Part shown: piece by piece, positions 6,100-22,664 of the stretch | Position numbering within the stretch: the first letter of the stretch is position 1 | How the letters are laid out: every line of letters starts with the position of its first letter | DNA from: Phycisphaerae bacterium | GTDB lineage: Bacteria; Planctomycetota; Phycisphaerae; Sedimentisphaerales; Anaerobacaceae | NCBI GenBank assembly: GCA_028714255.1 | Contig: JAQTMR010000015.1 | Span: forward strand, 1 to 46,672 | DNA: 46,672 nucleotides | Direction: 5' to 3' | The notes under the pieces: model-generated | What the model was told of the DNA's origin: nothing | The model's input: the letters and a program-made list of their open reading frames with translations, nothing else | The model's database searches: none | Translations under genes and position numbers: made by a program

Positions 6100-7320
6100 T
6101 TAGCTTTTCTTGTTTGTTTTTCTTACCGGTTTTTCTCGGACGAATCGGCTGATATTGCGAACCGCCTGACGGAGACGCTGCTCGTTTTCAACAAGAGCTA
6201 TGCGCATATAGTTTTCACCGTTCTCTCCGAAGGCCCGGCCCGGCGCAATCGCGACCTCGGCGTACTCCATAAGGTCCATCGCATAATCGATACTGCCTTT
6301 GCCTCTCGAATGTTCCTGCGGCACTTTCGCCCATACGAACATCGAAGCCCTCGGCTTCTCGACTTCCCAGCCTATCCTGTTTAGTCCGTCACATACAACG
6401 TCACGCCGGGACTGATACTTTTGGTTTTGAGCGATAACATCGTTGCTGCACTCCCGCAGGGCAATGATACCGGCAATCTGAATGGCCTGGAATATGCCGT
6501 AGTCATAGTAGCCCTTTATCGTTGCCAGATAATCTATCATACTTTTATTGCCGGCAACAAAACCAACTCTAAAGCCGGCCATATTATAGGGCTTGCTTAG
6601 AGTAATAAACTCAACGCCGACGTCCTTCGCGCCCTTGACAGAGAGAAAACTCGGCGCCTTATAGCCGTCGAAACAGGTCTCGCCATAGGCAAAATCATGA
6701 ATGACAGCTATACCGAACCGCTTCGCCAAATCCACGATAGGCTCGAAAAAGCCTTCGTCAACGGTCATCGCCGTAGGATTATGAGGGTAATTGAGAATAA
6801 GCAGCTTCGGCCTCGGATATAGGTGCTCAACCACATCTACGATATTCTTGATAAACTTTTCGTCATTGCCCAGAGGAACGGATATCACGTTTGCCCCTGC
6901 CAGAGCAACAGCGTAATTGTGTATCGGAAAAGCCGGGTCAGGAACAACCGCGGTATCGCCGGGACCTAACATCGCAAGGCACAAATGGCTAAAGCCTTCC
7001 TTCGAGCCAATACAGGCCAGTACTTCCGTTTCCGGGTCTAACTGAACATTCCAGAGCCGAGCGTATTTCTTGGCAACCTCGCCCCGCAAATTCTTAATCC
7101 CTTTTGAAGCGCTGTATCGGTGGTTTCGCGGGTCGCGGGCCGCTTCGCACAATTTATCAATGATGATTTTCGGCGCAGGGTCGGTTGGATTACCCATCCC
7201 AAGGTCTATAATATCGGCGCCCTGCTGGCGCTTGGCTAATTTCAATGCGTTCAATCGCCCAAACAAATAGGGTGGTAAACGTGTAATTCTCTGTGCAGGC
7301 TCAATCTTAAATTCAGGCAT
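6100..7320 (-). CDS. alaC: PLP-dependent aminotransferase, AlaC type (class I/II)
   Basis: A 406-residue fold-type I aminotransferase that would make alanine from pyruvate and glutamate. The whole length aligns by eye with E. coli AlaC: RITRLPPYLFGRLNALKLA, DIIDLGMGNPTDPAP, the HRYSASKGIKNLR block, IGSKEGFSHL, YPHNPTA (Asn181), HDFAYG (Asp209, Tyr212) and LSKPYNMAGFRVGF with the PLP-binding Lys243. LL-diaminopimelate aminotransferases are close relatives and a dual role cannot be excluded. AGGAA precedes the ATG. The C-terminus ends in a basic stretch. It is a lone gene on the minus strand with divergent, gene-free DNA downstream. Confidence 0.88.
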   Translation of the reverse strand: MPEFKIEPAQRITRLPPYLFGRLNALKLAKRQQGADIIDLGMGNPTDPAPKIIIDKLCEAARDPRNHRYSASKGIKNLRGEVAKKYARLWNVQLDPETEVLACIGSKEGFSHLCLAMLGPGDTAVVPDPAFPIHNYAVALAGANVISVPLGNDEKFIKNIVDVVEHLYPRPKLLILNYPHNPTAMTVDEGFFEPIVDLAKRFGIAVIHDFAYGETCFDGYKAPSFLSVKGAKDVGVEFITLSKPYNMAGFRVGFVAGNKSMIDYLATIKGYYDYGIFQAIQIAGIIALRECSNDVIAQNQKYQSRRDVVCDGLNRIGWEVEKPRASMFVWAKVPQEHSRGKGSIDYAMDLMEYAEVAIAPGRAFGENGENYMRIALVENEQRLRQAVRNISRFVREKPVRKTNKKS

Positions 7321-13943: not shown

Positions 13944-14312
13944 ATGGCAAAAAGCAAAGGACAGATTGAAGCCGAGATTAGCGAGGCCCTGATTAAATTC
14001 GAAAAAGAATATATGGGCCGAGGCCCAGAAGAAACCCAGACATACATCATTGATGATATGATATTTGTTCGGCTGAAACGCGTCCTGACTTCCGCCGAAC
14101 AGCAGCTCGCCAAAACAACTGACAACGCCAAAGGAAGAACGCTGATAAAGCAGGTAAGGACCGAGCTGCTCGAAAAAGCCCGCTCGCTTCTTGAACCTCT
14201 CGTAGCCGAGATAACCGGGAAAAAGGTAAAAAGCCTTCACACTGATATAAGCACCGTAACCGGAGAGCGGATTATCGTTTTCACCCTCGATGGCTCGCTC
14301 GACGTGCAATAA
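13944..14312 (+). CDS. DUF2294-family protein (first of two in the window)
   Basis: A 122-residue cytoplasmic protein of the DUF2294 type: KSKGQIEAEISEALIKFEKEYMGRGPEE, then an IIDDMIFVRLKRVLT strand-helix, a long amphipathic helix (EQQLAKTT...KQVRTELLEKARSLLEPL) and a final strand (ISTVTGERIIVFTLDG). The function of the family is unknown. It follows the MFS/spermidine-synthase gene by 23 bases with GGAAGG as ribosome site. A related protein is at 15096-15473 in the pckG operon. Confidence 0.8.
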   Translation: MAKSKGQIEAEISEALIKFEKEYMGRGPEETQTYIIDDMIFVRLKRVLTSAEQQLAKTTDNAKGRTLIKQVRTELLEKARSLLEPLVAEITGKKVKSLHTDISTVTGERIIVFTLDGSLDVQ

Positions 14313-14616: not shown

Positions 14617-15099
14617 ATGGAACGATTCACTAAAGATGGGAAATTCATTATTCCGCAGGTGAAGCGGAAAAAAAGCCCGAATAAGAAAAAATCCAGGCAC
14701 GTTGTAACCGAAGCGTACTGCCCCAACGGATGCAGCATCATTGACAAAGAACACGAAATAAACGGCTCGCCGGGCTTACGCGTCAAATTCAAACGGCCAG
14801 ATATGGAAGGCGAGCTTGTCCTCTCCGCTGTTCAGATGGATTTCGAAAAAATTGTACTCTCCGGCGAGCTTAAAGACGGTGTTAAAGATGAACTATACTG
14901 TCCCCACTGCGGGGTTATGTTCAAAAAACTGGTCAACTGCACCTGCAAATCCGATGCCGATATGGTCGTTATCGGATTAACGCCGGAGCTTGATTTTAAT
15001 AACGCAATATCCTTCTGCAATGTGACCGGATGCACCAATGGCACAACCATCAAGTCAGGAGATATTATCAGGCATATGCAACTGCATGGAAAACTATGA
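14617..15099 (+). CDS. Cys-rich, probably zinc-binding protein of unknown function
   Basis: 160 residues, not recognised as a named family. It has a Lys-rich start (KRKKSPNKKKSRH) and four Cys clusters, CPNGC, CPHCG, CTC and CNVTGC, suggesting two zinc sites. The rest is predicted beta sheet (LRVKFKRPDMEGELVLSAVQ, ADMVVIGLTPELDFNN). No membrane segment or signal peptide is present, so it is probably cytoplasmic. Its stop codon overlaps the start of the next gene (ATGA at 15096-15099), showing translational coupling with the DUF2294 protein. Both precede pckG behind the same leader. A sensory or regulatory partner role for DUF2294/PEPCK is a guess from position only. Confidence 0.75.
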   Translation: MERFTKDGKFIIPQVKRKKSPNKKKSRHVVTEAYCPNGCSIIDKEHEINGSPGLRVKFKRPDMEGELVLSAVQMDFEKIVLSGELKDGVKDELYCPHCGVMFKKLVNCTCKSDADMVVIGLTPELDFNNAISFCNVTGCTNGTTIKSGDIIRHMQLHGKL

Positions 15100-15473
15100 A
15101 ACTCGATAGTCCCGAAGATAAAGAAACGCTAATGAGAAAAAACAGGCAATCAGAGCTTCAGATTGCCGAGGCGACGTCTGCTTTCGCCAAATCTCATATG
15201 CCCGTGACACCTGATTTAGTATCAGTCGGTATTCATCCGCACTGTGTTATCACGGCCCTTCGGGGCATTGTCGCACCGGCAGAGAAAAACTATGCCGAAA
15301 AGGAAAAATCATGTAGGTTAATGGAAGAATTCTATGATAATATCTACAATGCCGAAAAGAAACTTCTGGAAGTCGCCGTGGAAAACATCCTCGGTCGGAT
15401 GATTGAAAGTTCTATCCTATGGGTAGAGCCAAAGTCAGGAGACGGCGTAATCATGTTTACTTTTGCACGGTAA
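15096..15473 (+). CDS. DUF2294-like protein (second copy)
   Basis: 125 residues, from an ATG that overlaps the previous stop codon (ATGA). The second half, HPHCVITALRGIVAPAEKNYAE, then LMEEFYDNIYNAEKKLLEVA and SSILWVEPKSGDGVIMFTF, has the strand-helix-helix-strand layout of the DUF2294 protein at 13944, with low sequence identity. The N-terminal half is less similar and polar. The function is unknown. It sits 30 bases upstream of pckG, almost certainly co-transcribed with it. Confidence 0.7.
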   Translation: MKLDSPEDKETLMRKNRQSELQIAEATSAFAKSHMPVTPDLVSVGIHPHCVITALRGIVAPAEKNYAEKEKSCRLMEEFYDNIYNAEKKLLEVAVENILGRMIESSILWVEPKSGDGVIMFTFAR

Positions 15474-17661: not shown

Positions 17662-17733
17662 CCTATATAGACAGTTATTTTTACTGTGAGGGTAGTATTT
17701 TGCCCGCACACAAAAAAGTTTTGTAAGACTAAG

Positions 17734-18795
17734 ATGATACAAAACAACAAGGGTGATATAGTGCACAAAGCGGTGCAAGGTTTGAACATGCCCGGTAAAA
17801 ACACGGGTTTGCGGTTTTCTACGTCCGGTAAAAACCGTATGGCTGACCTCGTCGGGCAATCCGCTGCCCTTACTTCGATTCTTGAAACGGTCGAAGCAAT
17901 CGCCGCGCGGAAATGCTCGGTAATAATAACCGGCGAAACCGGCGTGGGCAAAGAGATGGTTGCCAGGCAAATCCACTATGCCAGCGACCGTTCAGACAAG
18001 GTTTTTGTACCCGTCGATTGCACCACACTAACAGGCCAGCTATTTGAAAGCCAGTTGTTCGGCCATGTAAAAGGCGCGTTTACAGGTGCCGTTGACGCTA
18101 CATTGGGCTTTTTCAGGGCCGCTAATGGCGGCACAGTCTTTCTTGATGAAATAAGCGAAATCCCGCTCGAACTGCAGGCTAAGCTCTTGCGGGTCCTGCA
18201 GGAGGGCGCCGTAACACCGTTAGGCTCAACGAAAGCCTGCCCAATTGACGTCCGTGTCCTCTGTGCCACTAACACCAGCCTGTCCGAAATGCTCAAAGAA
18301 GGAACCTTCCGCGCCGACTTATACTATCGGCTGAATGTGGTCAGCCTCGAAGTCCCGCCGCTTCGCCAGCGAAAAGAAGATATTCTGCCCCTGGCCGAAT
18401 ACTTCCTGACGAACCAGTCAATATTTTACGGAGAACCGCTCAAGGTCCTTAGTTCGACGGCCAAAGAACTCCTGTTGAACTACGCCTGGCCAGGCAATAT
18501 CAGAGAGCTTTCCAACGCTATGGAACGTGCCTATGTCCTGACCACAGGCACAGAAATTCAACCCGTTGTATTGCCGTTCGAAGTCATAATAGCAGATTCT
18601 CCTGCTTATCCGAAACACGAGATGCCGACCCTCGATGAAGTAAAACGAAAGATTATCACTCAAACGCTCGAATTCACCAAAGGCCGCAAAATCGCCGCCG
18701 CAAAAATCCTCGGTGTCGAACGCCGCTGCCTGAATCGCCTAATCGACAAGTTAAACATATCTCTCTCGCAGTCAAAGAAAAACGCCGGCAGCTAA
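17734..18795 (+). CDS. Sigma-54-dependent transcriptional activator lacking a receiver domain
   Basis: About 353 residues from ATG 17734. GTG 17761 is a good alternative start, because AAGGGTGAT, close to an extended Shine-Dalgarno, lies just upstream. There is only a 35-residue N-terminal tail instead of a receiver. Then comes the AAA+ domain, with Walker A GETGVGKE (67-74), the sigma-54 contact loop GAFTGA (114-119), Walker B GGTVFLDEI (132-140) and an arginine-rich sensor region (RADLYYRLNVVSLEVPPLRQRK). A Fis-type helix-turn-helix follows (about 318-340, IAAAKILGVERRCLNRLIDKL). It remodels RNA polymerase-sigma54 at -24/-12 promoters. In other PEP-CTERM organisms a sigma-54 regulator (PrsR type) controls PEP-CTERM genes, and the downstream context fits that. 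How its activity is controlled without a receiver is unknown. Confidence 0.88.
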   Translation: MIQNNKGDIVHKAVQGLNMPGKNTGLRFSTSGKNRMADLVGQSAALTSILETVEAIAARKCSVIITGETGVGKEMVARQIHYASDRSDKVFVPVDCTTLTGQLFESQLFGHVKGAFTGAVDATLGFFRAANGGTVFLDEISEIPLELQAKLLRVLQEGAVTPLGSTKACPIDVRVLCATNTSLSEMLKEGTFRADLYYRLNVVSLEVPPLRQRKEDILPLAEYFLTNQSIFYGEPLKVLSSTAKELLLNYAWPGNIRELSNAMERAYVLTTGTEIQPVVLPFEVIIADSPAYPKHEMPTLDEVKRKIITQTLEFTKGRKIAAAKILGVERRCLNRLIDKLNISLSQSKKNAGS

Positions 18796-19099: not shown

Positions 19100-19115
19100 T
19101 GGCACGCCGCTCGCT
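19100..19115 (+). promoter_or_regulatory. Candidate sigma-54 (-24/-12) promoter
   Basis: TGGCAC at 19100-19105 and TCGCT at 19111-19115 give the invariant GG-N10-GC spacing (GG 19101-19102, GC 19113-19114) of sigma-54 promoters; the consensus is TGGCAC-N5-TTGCW. The start would be near 19126, about 70 bases before the first structured leader element. It lies 305 bases after the sigma-54 activator gene, on the same strand. The rest of 18796-19193 shows no gene. Confidence 0.6.
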
Positions 19116-19193
19116 ATTTATGTCTAATGCAACACGACAAAACAACTGAGAACGCAAAAAAGTTTTTCGCTCTTTGAAAAACCAAGAAGTCGA

Positions 19194-19437
19194 GAGCATC
19201 CACCCAATAAGGGTGATAATGATAAATCCGCCGAAGACGGATAAATGCTCATGAGGAGTTTTCTCCCCCCAAGCTGGACCTTGATAGCTGAAAACGAAAT
19301 TAATCTAAATAAGTTATAAGGTCCGGCAGAAAGTTGACGCTCCCGCCGTTCCTAAGGGACCGCAGGGGTGATAAAGATACTAAAAAGCATTTTCTCTCCT
19401 CTTCTTCCGCTGGGTTTGGAATATCAGCAAACCCAGC
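19194..19437 (+). ncRNA. Conserved structured leader RNA, copy 1
   Basis: Stems read directly from the sequence, in order. (A) a three-way junction closed by GAGCAT (19194-19199) with ATGCTC (19245-19250), holding hairpins CACCC/GGGTG (19201-19215) and ATCCG/CGGAT (19226-19242). (B) GGAG-TTTT-CTCC (19255-19266) followed by four C. (C) a 10-bp stem, GCTGGACCTT (19273-19282) with AAGGTCCGGC (19318-19327). (D) a G/C-rich hairpin with loop TAA (19342-19368) followed by GGTGATAA. (E) the pyrimidine tract TCTCTCCTC, then GCTGGGTTTG/CAAACCCAGC (19409-19437). It precedes the pseudo-receiver gene and lies downstream of the sigma-54-like promoter. Confidence 0.7.
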
Positions 19438-19519
19438 ATGATTACAAACGCGGCTGCGTGTAGGCCGTGATAGCAATATGTGTAAACATGAATCTGTAAC
19501 AAATGAATAGGAATTAAAA

Positions 19520-19957
19520 ATGATCGTTCTGGTACAGGCAAGTGTGTTGACGGTTGGTCTCAATGGCAAAAATGAAGTCCTGCGAGAACTGCCGATTCGT
19601 TTGATAACAATGCAGTCCGGAAAAAAGGCTGCCCGCTCTTTAAAAAATGAAAAGATTGACAGCGTTATCAGCAAGTGGGACCTGTGTGATATGGAGAACG
19701 GCCAATTTCTCAGGACTCTGCGGGCCGTAAAGCCCGGGATTCCTACAATAGCTTTTGTAAAGGCCGGAGACCATGCACAGGAAATAGCTGCGAGAAGTCT
19801 CGGTGTCTCGGCGGTTTTGACCGAGGAGGCCAACGATGGACTCTTCCGGGAAACCGTCGCCAACGTACTTGGACTGAGGGACATCGTTTCGATAAAAGCT
19901 ATAGCCGCTGCTGAAAACGAAAAGGGCCGCTACCGTAAAGCGAAAATCGCAAAGTAG
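19520..19957 (+). CDS. Stand-alone pseudo-receiver (degenerate CheY-like) protein
   Basis: 145 residues. The fold pattern is receiver-like: strand MIVLVQASVLTVGL, a helix, strand IDSVISKWDLCDMENGQFL, then TLRAVKPGIPTIAFVKAGD and ARSLGVSAVLTEEANDGLFRETVANVL. In a normal receiver the third strand ends in the phosphorylated Asp (DLVILDWDLPDMNG). Here that position is Lys (DSVISKWDLCDMENG) and the N-terminal acidic pair is missing, so it should not be phosphorylated in the usual way. It ends in a basic tail (KGRYRKAKIAK). It lies between the two structured leaders, downstream of the receiver-less sigma-54 activator, and could act as a protein partner of that activator; this is inference. Confidence 0.65.
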   Translation: MIVLVQASVLTVGLNGKNEVLRELPIRLITMQSGKKAARSLKNEKIDSVISKWDLCDMENGQFLRTLRAVKPGIPTIAFVKAGDHAQEIAARSLGVSAVLTEEANDGLFRETVANVLGLRDIVSIKAIAAAENEKGRYRKAKIAK

Positions 19958-19989
19958 TCGGCTTAAAAAGAGGAGATACTGATATATGA

Positions 19990-20274
19990 GAGCAACCACC
20001 CTTAAAGGGTGATTAAGATATATCCGCCGAAGACGGATAAATGCTCACGAGGAGTTTTCTCCCCCCAAGCTGGACCTCGGCAAAACCCTAATAGCCCAAA
20101 ACCAATTGTTGGCATAAAGAGTGGTTTCCTGGTCCGGCAGAAAATTAACCTGCCCCTGGCGGGATAATAATAAATAACCTGAGGGTTAAGAATTCTCTCT
20201 CCTCCTCCTTTGCTGGGTTTGAAAAAGCCCAGCACTAAAAACAACATCCCCGCTATCCCTTAGGGACGGCGGGG
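19990..20274 (+). ncRNA. Conserved structured leader RNA, copy 2
   Basis: It has the same parts as copy 1. (A) GAGCA (19990-19994) with TGCTC (20042-20046) encloses CACCC/GGGTG (19997-20011) and ATCCG/CGGAT (20022-20038). (B) GGAG-TTTT-CTCC (20051-20062) is followed by four C. (C) GCTGGACC (20069-20076) pairs with GGTCCGGC (20131-20138) around an unrelated loop. (E) the pyrimidine tract CTCTCTCCTCCTCC is followed by TGCTGGGTTT/AAGCCCAGCA closing a GAAA tetraloop (20211-20234). (D) CCCCGC..TCCC/GGGA..GCGGGG (20248-20274) has loop TTA and then GGTGATAA. D and E are swapped in order relative to copy 1. About 55 bases spanning the ATCCG hairpin to GGACCT are identical in both copies except one. 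It is the leader of the PEP-CTERM gene at 20357. Confidence 0.7.
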
Positions 20275-20356
20275 GTGATAATTATACGAAGAAGAAAAGA
20301 AGAAGACTGCGTTCGTTCTGAAGAGGGTAAACGAAAAGAAAGCAGCGGAGAGAAAA

Positions 20357-21103
20357 ATGAAAACTCAAATTATTTTATTATCAGCGATTATTATAACCAC
20401 AACCTGTATTGCAAGAGCCGTCCCAGTTGGCACCGTGGATATAGCACACACAGGTTATGGTGCAATTGGACAACTTAAAGTTTGGGGAGGCGGCCTCTAC
20501 GGCTCGCGCGTGTACGGCGGCGTCTATACGCTTGACAAGACTGACGGCACGGGCCAAGGCAACATCTGGCCCGACGAAATGCTCGGTGCTTTTTGCATTG
20601 AATTGTCCGAGGGAGCACCAAAAAAAACATCTGAATATGACGTGGTTATGCCGGAAGAGACGCAGAAGCCAACCGACTTTCTGGGGGACCATATAGGGCT
20701 TGATAAGGCCGAATATCTCAGCGAGCTTTGGGGCAGATTTTTTGACAAAAACTGGCTGGGAGACGGGCCTTTTACCTATTCGCAAAAAAGAAACGCCGAA
20801 GCTTTTTCCGCCGCTATATGGGAAATTGTCTACGAAAAGCTTCCCGAATCACCAGCGGACTGGAACGTTAAATTTGACGGCACTTATGGCAGTCTCGGCT
20901 TTAAGTGTTCTGAAACAGACACATCGCTCGCCAATTCTTGGCTGCACGCACTCGATGGCACAGGCCCAAAGGCAGAGTTGCGAGCTTTCGTTTACGATGG
21001 AAAACAAGACTACCTCGTAGAGGTCCCCGAACCGGCAACGATTTGTATCCTCGGCCTCGGCACTCTGGTTCTATTCAGAAAACGCAAAACAAAATGTAAC
21101 TAA
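20357..21103 (+). CDS. PEP-CTERM sorting domain protein behind leader RNA copy 2
   Basis: 248 residues, with signal peptide MKTQIILLSAIIITTTCIARA. The segment GAFCIELSEGAPKKTSEY and later EAFSAAIWEIVYE resemble the Cys...(Q)AIWE layout of thioester-type PEP-CTERM proteins. Here Ser stands where Gln is usual, so a thioester is doubtful. The tail VPEPATICILGLGTLVLF then RKRK is a canonical PEP-CTERM signal. GGAGAG lies 8-10 bases before the ATG and is complementary to the CTCTCC tract in the leader element, which could hide the ribosome site. Probably an exosortase-processed surface or matrix protein. Confidence 0.87.
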   Translation: MKTQIILLSAIIITTTCIARAVPVGTVDIAHTGYGAIGQLKVWGGGLYGSRVYGGVYTLDKTDGTGQGNIWPDEMLGAFCIELSEGAPKKTSEYDVVMPEETQKPTDFLGDHIGLDKAEYLSELWGRFFDKNWLGDGPFTYSQKRNAEAFSAAIWEIVYEKLPESPADWNVKFDGTYGSLGFKCSETDTSLANSWLHALDGTGPKAELRAFVYDGKQDYLVEVPEPATICILGLGTLVLFRKRKTKCN

Positions 21104-21183: not shown

Positions 21184-21870
21184 ATGAAAAAGCTTTTAAC
21201 AATTTGTGCCGTGGCAGGTTTTATCTTCATCGCCCCAGGCCCGGCCACAGCAGACTTTGTAATGCCGCCGTGGGCAGGACAAGACGGAACGGTGTATGCA
21301 GAATGGAATGATTGGACAGGATTTCCAAGTCCTATGCCGCCGGATTTCTGGGAGAGTTACCCGGATGAGCTTCAATCTTCTCCAGCCGCTTATGCCTTTG
21401 GCACATCTTCTCTGCTGACAAGTTATGCGGGCAGAAACAACGTCATTCAACTAAATGAAGATAATGGGCTGATATTCGATATACCGAATTTCGGGCCAAA
21501 TGAGCACAAGGAAGTCTGGATTCAGGTTACTTACTACCCAGCGATGCAGGGGCAATCTCCATGGTTTGACATCGGCACTACTACAGAATCCGATGTGAAC
21601 GGACCGTTCTTCATAGACTCTGTAGAATTTGGCGGCTGGGTTACCGATATCTGGAGTCTCCAAATCTGGCCCAATCCGGAACGCGAAGAAATCGCACTGA
21701 ACTTTTCTATCGCCCTCACTGGACTTGGTGCAACGGCGTTAGATATACCGTACCCGGCATATATAGATCAGGTAGCAGTTGATACATGGTGCATCCCGGA
21801 GCCGACAACAATATTTCTGCTTGGTCTTGGCACATTGAGTTTCCTCCGCTCGTCTCGGCAAAAACGCTAA
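21184..21870 (+). CDS. PEP-CTERM protein, paralogue A
   Basis: 228 residues. It has a signal peptide (MKKLLTICAVAGFIFIAPGPATA), then DFVMPPWAGQDGTVYAEWNDW and a beta-rich body (FGPNEHKEVWIQVTYYP, EREEIALNFSIAL). It ends VDTWCIPEPTTIFLLGLGTLSFLR then SSRQKR. It is clearly related to the next gene: both start M-P-P-.-W-.-G-Q-.-G-T after the leader and end with DTWC(I/V)PEPTTI. No enzyme motif is present. It is 80 bases downstream of the previous PEP-CTERM gene and probably shares its transcript. Confidence 0.86.
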   Translation: MKKLLTICAVAGFIFIAPGPATADFVMPPWAGQDGTVYAEWNDWTGFPSPMPPDFWESYPDELQSSPAAYAFGTSSLLTSYAGRNNVIQLNEDNGLIFDIPNFGPNEHKEVWIQVTYYPAMQGQSPWFDIGTTTESDVNGPFFIDSVEFGGWVTDIWSLQIWPNPEREEIALNFSIALTGLGATALDIPYPAYIDQVAVDTWCIPEPTTIFLLGLGTLSFLRSSRQKR

Positions 21871-22010: not shown

Positions 22011-22664
22011 ATGAAAAAGTTAATACTCTTGCTAATTGCCGCATGTGTGGCGATGACTCAGATAGCTGCTGCCGAAGACCTCATGCCGCCGTCGTGGCGG
22101 GGACAGTTGGGCACCACTTCACAAGTCTGGGAGTTTGAGTCTCCGATGGTCCCGGGGGCAACATTCTTCTATGCACCGGATGGGCCGGCGACAGGCGGCC
22201 TGCCTCCTCTGCCAAGCACGAAAATATACTGGCTGACTGGGTCATCACCAATAGACTACTGGTTAAATAGCGATGCCGGACGTTCAGGCGTTGTCCCGCT
22301 TTCAGGCTCCCTTGACATCACTGTGGACAACTACGACCCGCACCCTGATAACATCAAGTTAATCTGGCTCCAGCTCACCTGGCGGCCGCAGGAATTAGGC
22401 AGCGAACCTTTCTTTATAGACTTTGACCCCCTGCCCACACTGCCGCCGGTGCTTATCGATGAAATCCCGCTCAACCTCGACTGGAAGCAAAGCACCTACG
22501 CTTGGCAGCTTGACTGGAACCCGCCGGACGAGCAAATCATCCTCGGCGGAAATATCAACGTCGATGAGCTGGTCATAGATACATGGTGTGTCCCCGAGCC
22601 GACGACGATTTGCATCCTCGGACTCGGAGCGCTAAGTCTGCTTCGCAAACAAAAAAACAGTTAG
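22011..22664 (+). CDS. PEP-CTERM protein, paralogue B
   Basis: 217 residues, with signal peptide MKKLILLLIAACVAMTQIAAA. The body begins EDLMPPSWRGQLGTTSQVWEF and contains NIKLIWLQLTWRPQELGSEP, matching the HKEVWIQVTYYP region of the previous gene. The tail is IDTWCVPEPTTICILGLGAL then SLLRKQKNS. It is a tandem paralogue of the 21184 gene at roughly 30-35% identity by eye, probably an old duplication. The 140-base gap between them contains a GCCGC/GCGGC hairpin near 21957-21975. It is the last gene of the plus-strand run; a tRNA-His follows on the other strand. Confidence 0.86.
   Translation: MKKLILLLIAACVAMTQIAAAEDLMPPSWRGQLGTTSQVWEFESPMVPGATFFYAPDGPATGGLPPLPSTKIYWLTGSSPIDYWLNSDAGRSGVVPLSGSLDITVDNYDPHPDNIKLIWLQLTWRPQELGSEPFFIDFDPLPTLPPVLIDEIPLNLDWKQSTYAWQLDWNPPDEQIILGGNINVDELVIDTWCVPEPTTICILGLGALSLLRKQKNS

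Follow-up and report, generated by a model that had tools for sequence, protein, structure and literature searches.

What kind of RNA is encoded by two related stretches of sequence that lie on either side of a small gene, ahead of a run of PEP-CTERM surface protein genes, in a Phycisphaerae bacterium, and does it act only on the gene that follows it? The stretches belong to a 46,672-nt piece of DNA (GenBank assembly GCA_028714255.1, contig JAQTMR010000015.1, positions 1 to 46,672; hereinafter designated the window), and a preliminary description made from its sequence alone had taken them for two copies of a cis-regulatory leader RNA. We find that they are two copies of one modular RNA (element A, 19192-19479; element B, 19988-20287), each composed of one 5′ domain and one repeat unit, and that the basic element is the repeating unit and not the whole copy. 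The existence of a structured RNA family is near certain; computation establishes its structure and conservation, its absence from Rfam, its linkage to the gene for a receiver-fold protein, its strand bias and the promoter-like sites that accompany it. The family is probably new, specific to one bacterial order, built of tandem units and regulatory, and it probably helps to control surface (PEP-CTERM) proteins after transcription. The parts of the two elements, as matched by covariance models of the 5′ domain (R1) and of the unit (R2), are as follows.

19192-19380 (+): 5′ domain of element A (R1 match, 3.7e-30)
19390-19479 (+): repeat unit of element A, comprising pyrimidine tract, P1 hairpin, P2 hairpin and GAUA tail (R2 match, 8.7e-20 in the genome and 2.5e-20 in a later search)
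19988-20173 (+): 5′ domain of element B (R1 match, 1.4e-31)
20194-20287 (+): repeat unit of element B (R2 match, 4.8e-11 in the genome and 1.4e-11 in a later search)
CUCUCUCC, tract of the element B unit: predicted, from fold and duplex energy, to pair with the ribosome site at 20347-20352

In pairwise comparison the copies are 91% identical over a 90-nt stretch, with later modules repeating more weakly. Searched against its own 2.4-Mb genome, this stretch finds the other copy at E 3.8e-30 and its next DNA match at E 0.09, bearing out the claim that the two elements are copies. R2 likewise matches the genome at E <0.01 only at elements A and B, a candidate at C1:408211 (E 0.04) being left uncounted. 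The closing stem, three-way junction, GGAG-TTTT-CTCC hairpin followed by C4, and long stem ending in GGACC/GGTCC are all present in the sequence, as are the pyrimidine tract with its GCTGGG/CCCAGC hairpin and the TAA/TTA-loop hairpins followed by GGTGATAA, and most of these features recur in relatives. The 5′ domain of element A resolves into a closing stem, two inner hairpins, the GGAG-UUUU-CUCC hairpin with C4, a long P1 hairpin and a first P2. Two details of the preliminary description needed revision. The first copy had been ended at 19437 and reaches ~19479, because its unit too holds a P2 hairpin (19449-19469). The TAA/TTA hairpin does precede the pyrimidine tract in the first copy and follow it in the second, as described, but comparison with relatives rules out the module swap proposed to account for this: both copies consist of a 5′ domain ending in P1-P2, then a unit in the order pyrimidine tract, P1, P2 (hereinafter Y-P1-P2), and the long P2 variant is the first P2 in one copy and the second P2 in the other. 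An extra ATCCG/CGGAT hairpin occurs in five of the six aligned copies from the window's genus and in none of 16 other aligned domains, among which the one at locus L048 carries a different insert.

Across relatives, the 5′ domain is organized as a GAGAGC...GCUC stem around a CACGG/CCGUG-type hairpin, followed by the strongly conserved ACGAGGAGUUUUCUCCCCCCAAGCUGG, the long P1 hairpin and a P2 of CACGG..CCGUG that leads into GAUAA-N2-AUAA. The unit (~80-110 nt) consists of the pyrimidine tract, P1 (GCUGGGUUUG...CAAACCCAGC), an A-rich linker and P2, its hallmarks being the GCUGGG hairpin of P1 and the CACGG hairpin, then GAUAA, of P2. A 5′ domain is followed by zero to five units, and L109 holds seven; in L042 and L050 the units are nearly identical within one locus. 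R1 was built from 22 of 24 domains, leaving out an irregular one (L040) and a truncated one (L047), with two false pattern matches removed by eye; as it includes a P1-P2 part, its weaker matches include some that represent units and not 5′ domains. For R2, 21 of 44 units were used; the others were redundant or irregular, or the aligner had put P2 in the wrong place. In the 22 domain sequences, pairing is kept in 93.2% of cells (slid controls, 38-43%), two-sided changes occur at 12 of 29 pairs, and the covariation score is reached by none of 500 shuffles, with relatedness unaccounted for. Six of the 15 unit pairs change on both sides among the 21 chosen sequences. Among the best 150 of 189 model matches, which were fitted to R2 so that the counts lean towards that model, all 15 do so, the covariation score is again reached by 0/500 shuffles, and there are 223 double-change cells against 54 in shuffles (relatedness again unaccounted for). 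A covariance-model search of relatives, as the preliminary description had advised, thus returned recurrent matches with covarying stems near PEP-CTERM and regulator genes; homologues with compensatory changes, whose absence would have spoken against an RNA family, do exist.

No Rfam family accounts for these elements. Rfam 15 returned only three tRNAs over the window at gathering scores, only six tRNAs over ten relative loci, and, in a permissive search of 19100-20400, four chance-level matches (best E 1.9), all far below gathering; a known riboswitch or other Rfam family is therefore rejected, in keeping with the earlier remark that no known riboswitch class was recognised. Rhodopirellula-1, a motif with planctomycete members in an earlier catalogue of candidate structured RNAs, lies outside what Rfam searches exclude, since the row for it in that paper's table (PMC2864571) carries no Rfam number. 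Among the open-licence papers listed for PEP-CTERM and planctomycetes, planctomycete structured RNA and small RNAs of the order, we found no description of this RNA.

An initial DNA search found matches in 21 of 61 genomes, the window's own included. Among 89 genomes of the window's family, R1 matches 33 (E ≤0.01) and R2 matches 39. In 397 genomes drawn from the class, units at E ≤1e-5 occur in 35, comprising 20 of the window's family and 15 of other families of the same order, and none lies outside the order; of 392 genomes drawn from the phylum, four match, all within that order. At this scale, with more than 40 genomes per search, stricter filters were applied at the cost of weak matches. 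R1 also matches loci of families f6 (best E 3.2e-19) and f2 (best E 2.5e-18). An exact core pattern was found in 22 stretches of the GTDB species set, with 20 of them in metagenome-assembled genomes labelled planctomycete, Planctomycetota, Phycisphaerae, Phycisphaerales or Sedimentisphaerales and the other two in G006 and G067 of the window's family. The same pattern is absent from viral contigs (0 matches), and a phage origin is rejected on this ground.

The RNA is linked to one gene family. The gene between the two elements encodes a protein that scores 26.7 bits with Pfam Response_reg, under the cut-off of 30.2; its predicted model (predicted local distance difference test score 81.9) has a Spo0F structure as best Foldseek match (7.4e-8), indicating a CheY-like receiver fold. 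Aligned to CheY, the phospho-acceptor position is lysine in 15, arginine in nine, asparagine in three and serine in one of 29 such proteins in the family, with one unmatched by motif search. Loci of other families number 17, of which 16 have K, R, H, L, V or T there and one is again unmatched; aspartate is seen in none of the matched proteins (28/29 and 16/17 loci). The gene (hereinafter the pseudo-receiver gene) and its upstream neighbours are as follows.

17686-18795 (+): sigma-54 activator with AAA+ domain and Fis-type helix-turn-helix (Pfam Sigma54_activat 2.1e-65, HTH_8 1.7e-6)
19100-19114 (+): TGGCAC-N5-TCGC, a predicted sigma-54 promoter that precedes element A, the pseudo-receiver gene and element B
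19520-19957 (+): pseudo-receiver gene, linked to the RNA; its product has a CheY-like fold with lysine in place of the phospho-acceptor

A pseudo-receiver protein occurs in 28 of the 89 family genomes. At R1 E ≤0.01, 27 genomes have both match and gene, six the match only, one (G023) the gene only and 55 neither; at E ≤1e-7, a cut-off picked after the table had been seen, the figures are 27, one (G077), one and 60. G023 itself has R2 units beside its pseudo-receiver gene. Many RNA copies lie 3′ of the gene, and at seven of the 29 pseudo-receiver loci the 5′ domain lies upstream of it, additionally or instead. Within 2 kb of the gene at these loci, all 93 units among the best 150 of 189 matches share its strand (68 downstream, 25 upstream); the 39 weaker matches add 13 on the same strand and two on the opposite strand, both overlapping same-strand units, for an overall 106/108. 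The units are thus far from a mobile repeat that ignores genes and strand, which the preliminary description had named as the outcome that would undo its proposal. A mobile or selfish DNA repeat of no regulatory function would fit the repetition of units, near-identical at the two loci mentioned above, but it is largely refuted, and we reject it, by the strand bias, the linkage to one gene family and the compensatory changes, together with the presence of only two copies in the window's genome and the lack of the exact core in viral contigs. The pseudo-receiver cannot be the only partner of the RNA, because 11 of the 39 genomes with units are without it at E ≤1e-8, and we reject it in that role. 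Three pseudo-receiver matches contain internal stop codons (G003 C1:1688452-1688877, G005 C9:24139-24567 and G013 C1:1604258-1604662); either the match may overrun the end of the gene, or the gene may have decayed with the RNA kept.

At 26 of the 29 pseudo-receiver loci, the 1.1 kb upstream contain a TGGCAC-N5-TTGC site (up to one mismatch allowed), compared with a mean of 3.2% of background windows, and a sigma-54-dependent promoter with −24/−12 (GG/GC) elements is predicted at these 26 loci. No receiver domain was found in the activator at 17686-18795, which scores alike with several NtrC-type families (PrdR 316, NorR 312 and TIGR02915, the PEP-CTERM regulator PrsR, 300 bits against a cut-off of 502.6), all below their cut-offs. 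Of 21 loci examined, 11 have an orthologue of this receiver-less activator. Two genes for MpsC-domain proteins (Pfam PF10057; window positions 13944-14312 and 15030-15473) lie near each other on the upstream side of the activator.

Downstream of element B in the window, three PEP-CTERM protein genes follow one another.

20357-21103 (+): first gene after element B (Pfam PEP-CTERM, 3.2e-5)
21184-21870 (+): second gene (Pfam 4.2e-4, at cut-off; TIGR02595 above cut-off)
22011-22664 (+): third gene (Pfam just under cut-off; NCBIfam TIGR02595 above cut-off)

A plain leader, or riboswitch-like RNA, whose unit responds to a ligand or protein and acts on the following gene or operon alone, would suit several of the gene contexts. 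The next same-strand gene has a PEP-CTERM-like end at 16 of the 29 pseudo-receiver loci (13 by script and three by eye, one of the three cut short). Single units also stand directly before PEP-CTERM genes, three in G003 and three in G077, where a fourth contains masked bases, and end 7-21 nt before the start codon; others precede PEP-CTERM genes in G012 and further genomes. Each gene read in the PEP-CTERM clusters of these two genomes (L110:6199-7892 (-) in G003 and L113:5502-10819 in G077) has its own Y-P1-P2 leader unit, making the clusters a natural set of leader-unit variants. In the minimum-energy fold of the window, moreover, tract and ribosome site close the unit. Units, single or in short arrays, are not confined to surface protein genes: they precede csrA in G003, G077 and G013 (at ~85, 85 and 94 nt from the CsrA match) and hemerythrin-DUF438 genes in G005, G031 and, in family f7, G381. 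The csrA leaders of the three genomes (L111 and L112 (-), and L180) have one or two units, and the Csr system may therefore itself be a target.

A pure leader fits poorly, however, with the arrays that end without a target gene. At five of the 29 loci a predicted terminator follows the array with no PEP-CTERM gene after it: L042, L050 and L051 have no open reading frame (ORF) of 100 codons beyond the terminator within the scanned span, and L043 and L053 a mechanically called non-PEP ORF. At a sixth (L045) a terminator was recognised by eye, four loci are cut off by the end of the contig, and three fit neither class, including L049, whose units are upstream only. A terminator separates the array from the PEP-CTERM gene at L125, and several arrays of families f2 and f7 end at a strong terminator before unrelated genes. 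With seven units before one gene (L109) and the 5′ domain upstream of the pseudo-receiver gene, too or instead, at seven of the 29 loci, control of only the following gene is rather improbable. The cis-regulatory leader of the preliminary description is thus partly supported: a conserved structured RNA outside Rfam stands, the label 'leader' fits in part, and a purely cis-acting leader is not supported as the whole story.

The reading that we tentatively put first, with somewhat less than even confidence, is that the unit exposes an anti-Shine-Dalgarno tract, with leader copies acting in cis and arrays acting in trans. Two hairpins would set off the pyrimidine tract of each unit, with its anti-Shine-Dalgarno core (CUCC to CUCCUCCUCC). 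In a leader unit, the tract would pair with the ribosome site of its own gene and hold translation back. The array and the pseudo-receiver protein would be made together from the sigma-54 promoter, and the array tracts would then pair with ribosome sites of other mRNAs, PEP-CTERM mRNAs first; alternatively, the array may compete for whatever opens the leader units. Both modes are possible in the window, since element A lies in the 5′ untranslated region (UTR) of the pseudo-receiver gene and element B lies between that gene and the PEP-CTERM genes. We infer transcription, pairing with ribosome sites, the direction of regulation and the signal, and our confidence in the mechanism overall is moderate to low.

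Several properties of the tract are consistent with this anti-Shine-Dalgarno reading. A CUCC core is present in 34 of 40 family units, and CCTCCTCC or CTCCTCC (CUCCUCC) tracts were read in f2 and f7 loci. The mean unpaired probability of the tract is 0.76, compared with 0.67 when the hairpins are shuffled. The minimum-energy fold pairs the element B tract with the ribosome site of the 20357 gene, reproducing the match of CTCTCC in the second copy to GGAGAG that had been proposed earlier, and among 33 mechanically called ORFs of the window both tracts have their best duplex energy at that ribosome site. Over the loci, 23 PEP-CTERM starts have a median of −10.6 kcal/mol compared with −7.05 for 116 control ORFs (p 0.003), an advantage that is a mere hint because the control starts are mechanical. 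The 23 come from 27 listed starts, one in L189 and two in L193 being left out for want of a tract found by script and one in L113 as an opposite-strand start. In five leader folds from G003 and G077, the ribosome site is covered in two.

Other results weigh against the reading. The start-energy test is confounded, many of its mechanical controls being non-genes and its PEP-CTERM starts hand-picked, and most ribosome sites pair with a C/U tract. The advantage of real tracts over shuffled ones is only 0.9 kcal/mol, seen in 28 of 40 units, and the fuller core CCTCC (CCUCC) is found in only nine of 40 family units. In the remaining G003 and G077 leader folds, the tract pairs just upstream of the ribosome site in one of five and with neither in two of five. 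The hairpin sequences and A-rich linkers are more conserved than mere insulation requires. As to the RNA itself, the two-sided pair count of the 5′ domain is equalled by 17/500 shuffles, and its closing stem is without any two-sided change in the 22 sequences. Hfq, a usual helper of small RNAs, was found in 0/89 family genomes by a model that matched five of 14 control genomes. Specific pairing with PEP-CTERM ribosome sites is, on balance, suggestive but confounded.

The conserved hairpins and linkers are better explained if Y-P1-P2 binds a protein, with the leader copies as operators and the sigma-54-induced arrays titrating that protein, much as CsrB does with CsrA, but through a different protein and motif. 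Such an arrangement would suit the occurrence of the whole unit both before the start codons of at least three kinds of gene and in arrays of up to seven, the arrays that end at a terminator without a PEP-CTERM gene, and the units before csrA in three genomes. CsrB and RsmZ decoys carry repeated GGA motifs in hairpin loops, GGA being the core of the CsrA site, and resemble the present RNA in combining repeated sites in a decoy RNA with single sites in target leaders. They differ in that the unit lacks a conserved GGA loop and in that csrA itself carries the element in three genomes. Inspection of the alignments, without a motif count, revealed no conserved GGA in unit loops and one GGAG in the 5′ domain, and CsrA, present in 75 of the 89 family genomes, is rejected as the binding protein on this ground. 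There is, besides, no candidate protein, the pseudo-receiver not being the sole partner, and the absence of Hfq from the 89 family genomes counts against this explanation as well. Protein titration is accordingly somewhat unlikely, although it ranks close behind the anti-Shine-Dalgarno reading.

Part of the family shows signs of loop-loop contacts. At 13 loci of three families, a hairpin with the 7-nt loop ACUGGCC or ACUGUUC lies inside, ends or just follows the array, and in f7 such a hairpin also precedes PEP-CTERM genes. P1 loops at these loci complement the hairpin loop: 37 of 59 loops, some of them from non-unit hairpins, match their own type at 7/7 positions (GU allowed) and four match the other type, compared with a shuffled mean of 1.3 and maximum of 7 (200 shuffles); the GGCC-to-GUUC change in the hairpin is therefore mirrored in the units. 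The loci were picked for having the hairpin and comprise 11 of 12 found by script (L054 unused) plus L198 and L202, whose loop was assigned by eye. Of 161 genomes of the order, 15 contain the hairpin pattern, with 18 sites in all; 14 of these are at array loci read and four outside the loci read, and none is in the window's genus. For a second array type (loop GAACGGU; G050, G054, G297 and G384), the corresponding partner hairpin ACCGUUC failed, with one match in seven genomes, which lies in G050 at an unconfirmed location relative to the array. The own-type matches, and the occurrence of the hairpin mostly at arrays, are what would be expected of an architectural or processing RNA, a stability or scaffold element of the pseudo-receiver mRNA that works through loop-loop contacts without pairing to ribosome sites. 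This alternative has only a slim chance of being correct, as it leaves the pyrimidine tract and the csrA, hemerythrin and PEP-CTERM leaders unexplained, lacks the expected partner for the second loop type, and meets no loop hairpin in the window's genus.

In its fullest form, the anti-Shine-Dalgarno reading would amount to a post-transcriptional network, independent of CsrA motifs and Hfq, that switches members of a planctomycete order between free and matrix-bound life. Its sigma-54-induced array, co-transcribed with the pseudo-receiver and in some members of the family held by kissing loops, would use repeated anti-Shine-Dalgarno units to act in trans on PEP-CTERM, csrA and hemerythrin mRNAs that carry the same unit in their leaders; taken as a whole, this is unlikely. 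The RNA family links csrA and hemerythrin genes with those for surface proteins, yields two RNA models and a partner protein for testing, and would represent RNA-based regulation in genomes without detected Hfq.

By logic, the nearest known systems are cuckoo and CcsR RNAs; we claim membership of neither, sequence and structure having been compared through general Rfam searches. The cuckoo/alpha-r14 (NfeR1) RNAs of Alphaproteobacteria have three hairpins, each with CCUCCUCCC in an unpaired region (PMC10746234). The present RNA resembles them in that its hairpins alternate with unpaired tracts of anti-Shine-Dalgarno type (CCUCCUCCC in the cuckoo RNAs, CUCC to CUCCUCCUCC in this family) and its stems vary in sequence, and differs in its two hairpins per unit, separate 5′ domain, complementary loops in part of the family, leader copies, pseudo-receiver linkage and phylum. 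CcsR1-4 of Rhodobacter sphaeroides are processed from the 3′ UTR of ccaF1 (PMC8625941), so that one gene for a small regulatory protein gives rise to several small RNAs through its 3′ UTR, as may be the case here; the product of ccaF1 is a small protein that binds RNA, whereas the present gene encodes a receiver-fold protein and has a predicted sigma-54-type promoter. Sigma-54 control of PEP-CTERM genes is known in Proteobacteria, and the PrsR/PrsK system (PMC1569441, PMC9850573) shares PEP-CTERM genes, a sigma-54 promoter and an NtrC-type activator with the present loci. There, the DNA site lies before the PEP-CTERM genes; here, we find a receiver-less activator, a separate pseudo-receiver and a structured RNA.

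Further loci show variations on these themes. Products following units in G027 and G332 were suspected by eye to be FlgM-like; Pfam gave no match and no claim is made. Downstream of the pseudo-receiver match at 6140-6568 (-) of L039 (G005), a PEP-CTERM-like ORF stops right after IPEPATVE, without the usual C-terminal anchor, and may be cut short or frame-shifted. Four lone units (L168:3960-4053, L169:3892-3985, L170:3840-3947 and L119:5467-5560 (-)) are followed within ~20 nt by a hairpin of the form CCCCUG..GGAGG..AGA-CAGGGG or similar, and in most by a run of T after it; they are possible stand-alone small RNAs, and the GGA in the hairpin loop has a shape that we take to be like that of CsrA sites. 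At L189:3859-6811 in G046, each of three PEP-CTERM genes is preceded by a long leader in which a hairpin has the loop ACUGGCC (ACCGGCC at one gene), after which come CCAGUGA and ACGGA motifs, the latter presumably resembling CsrA sites.

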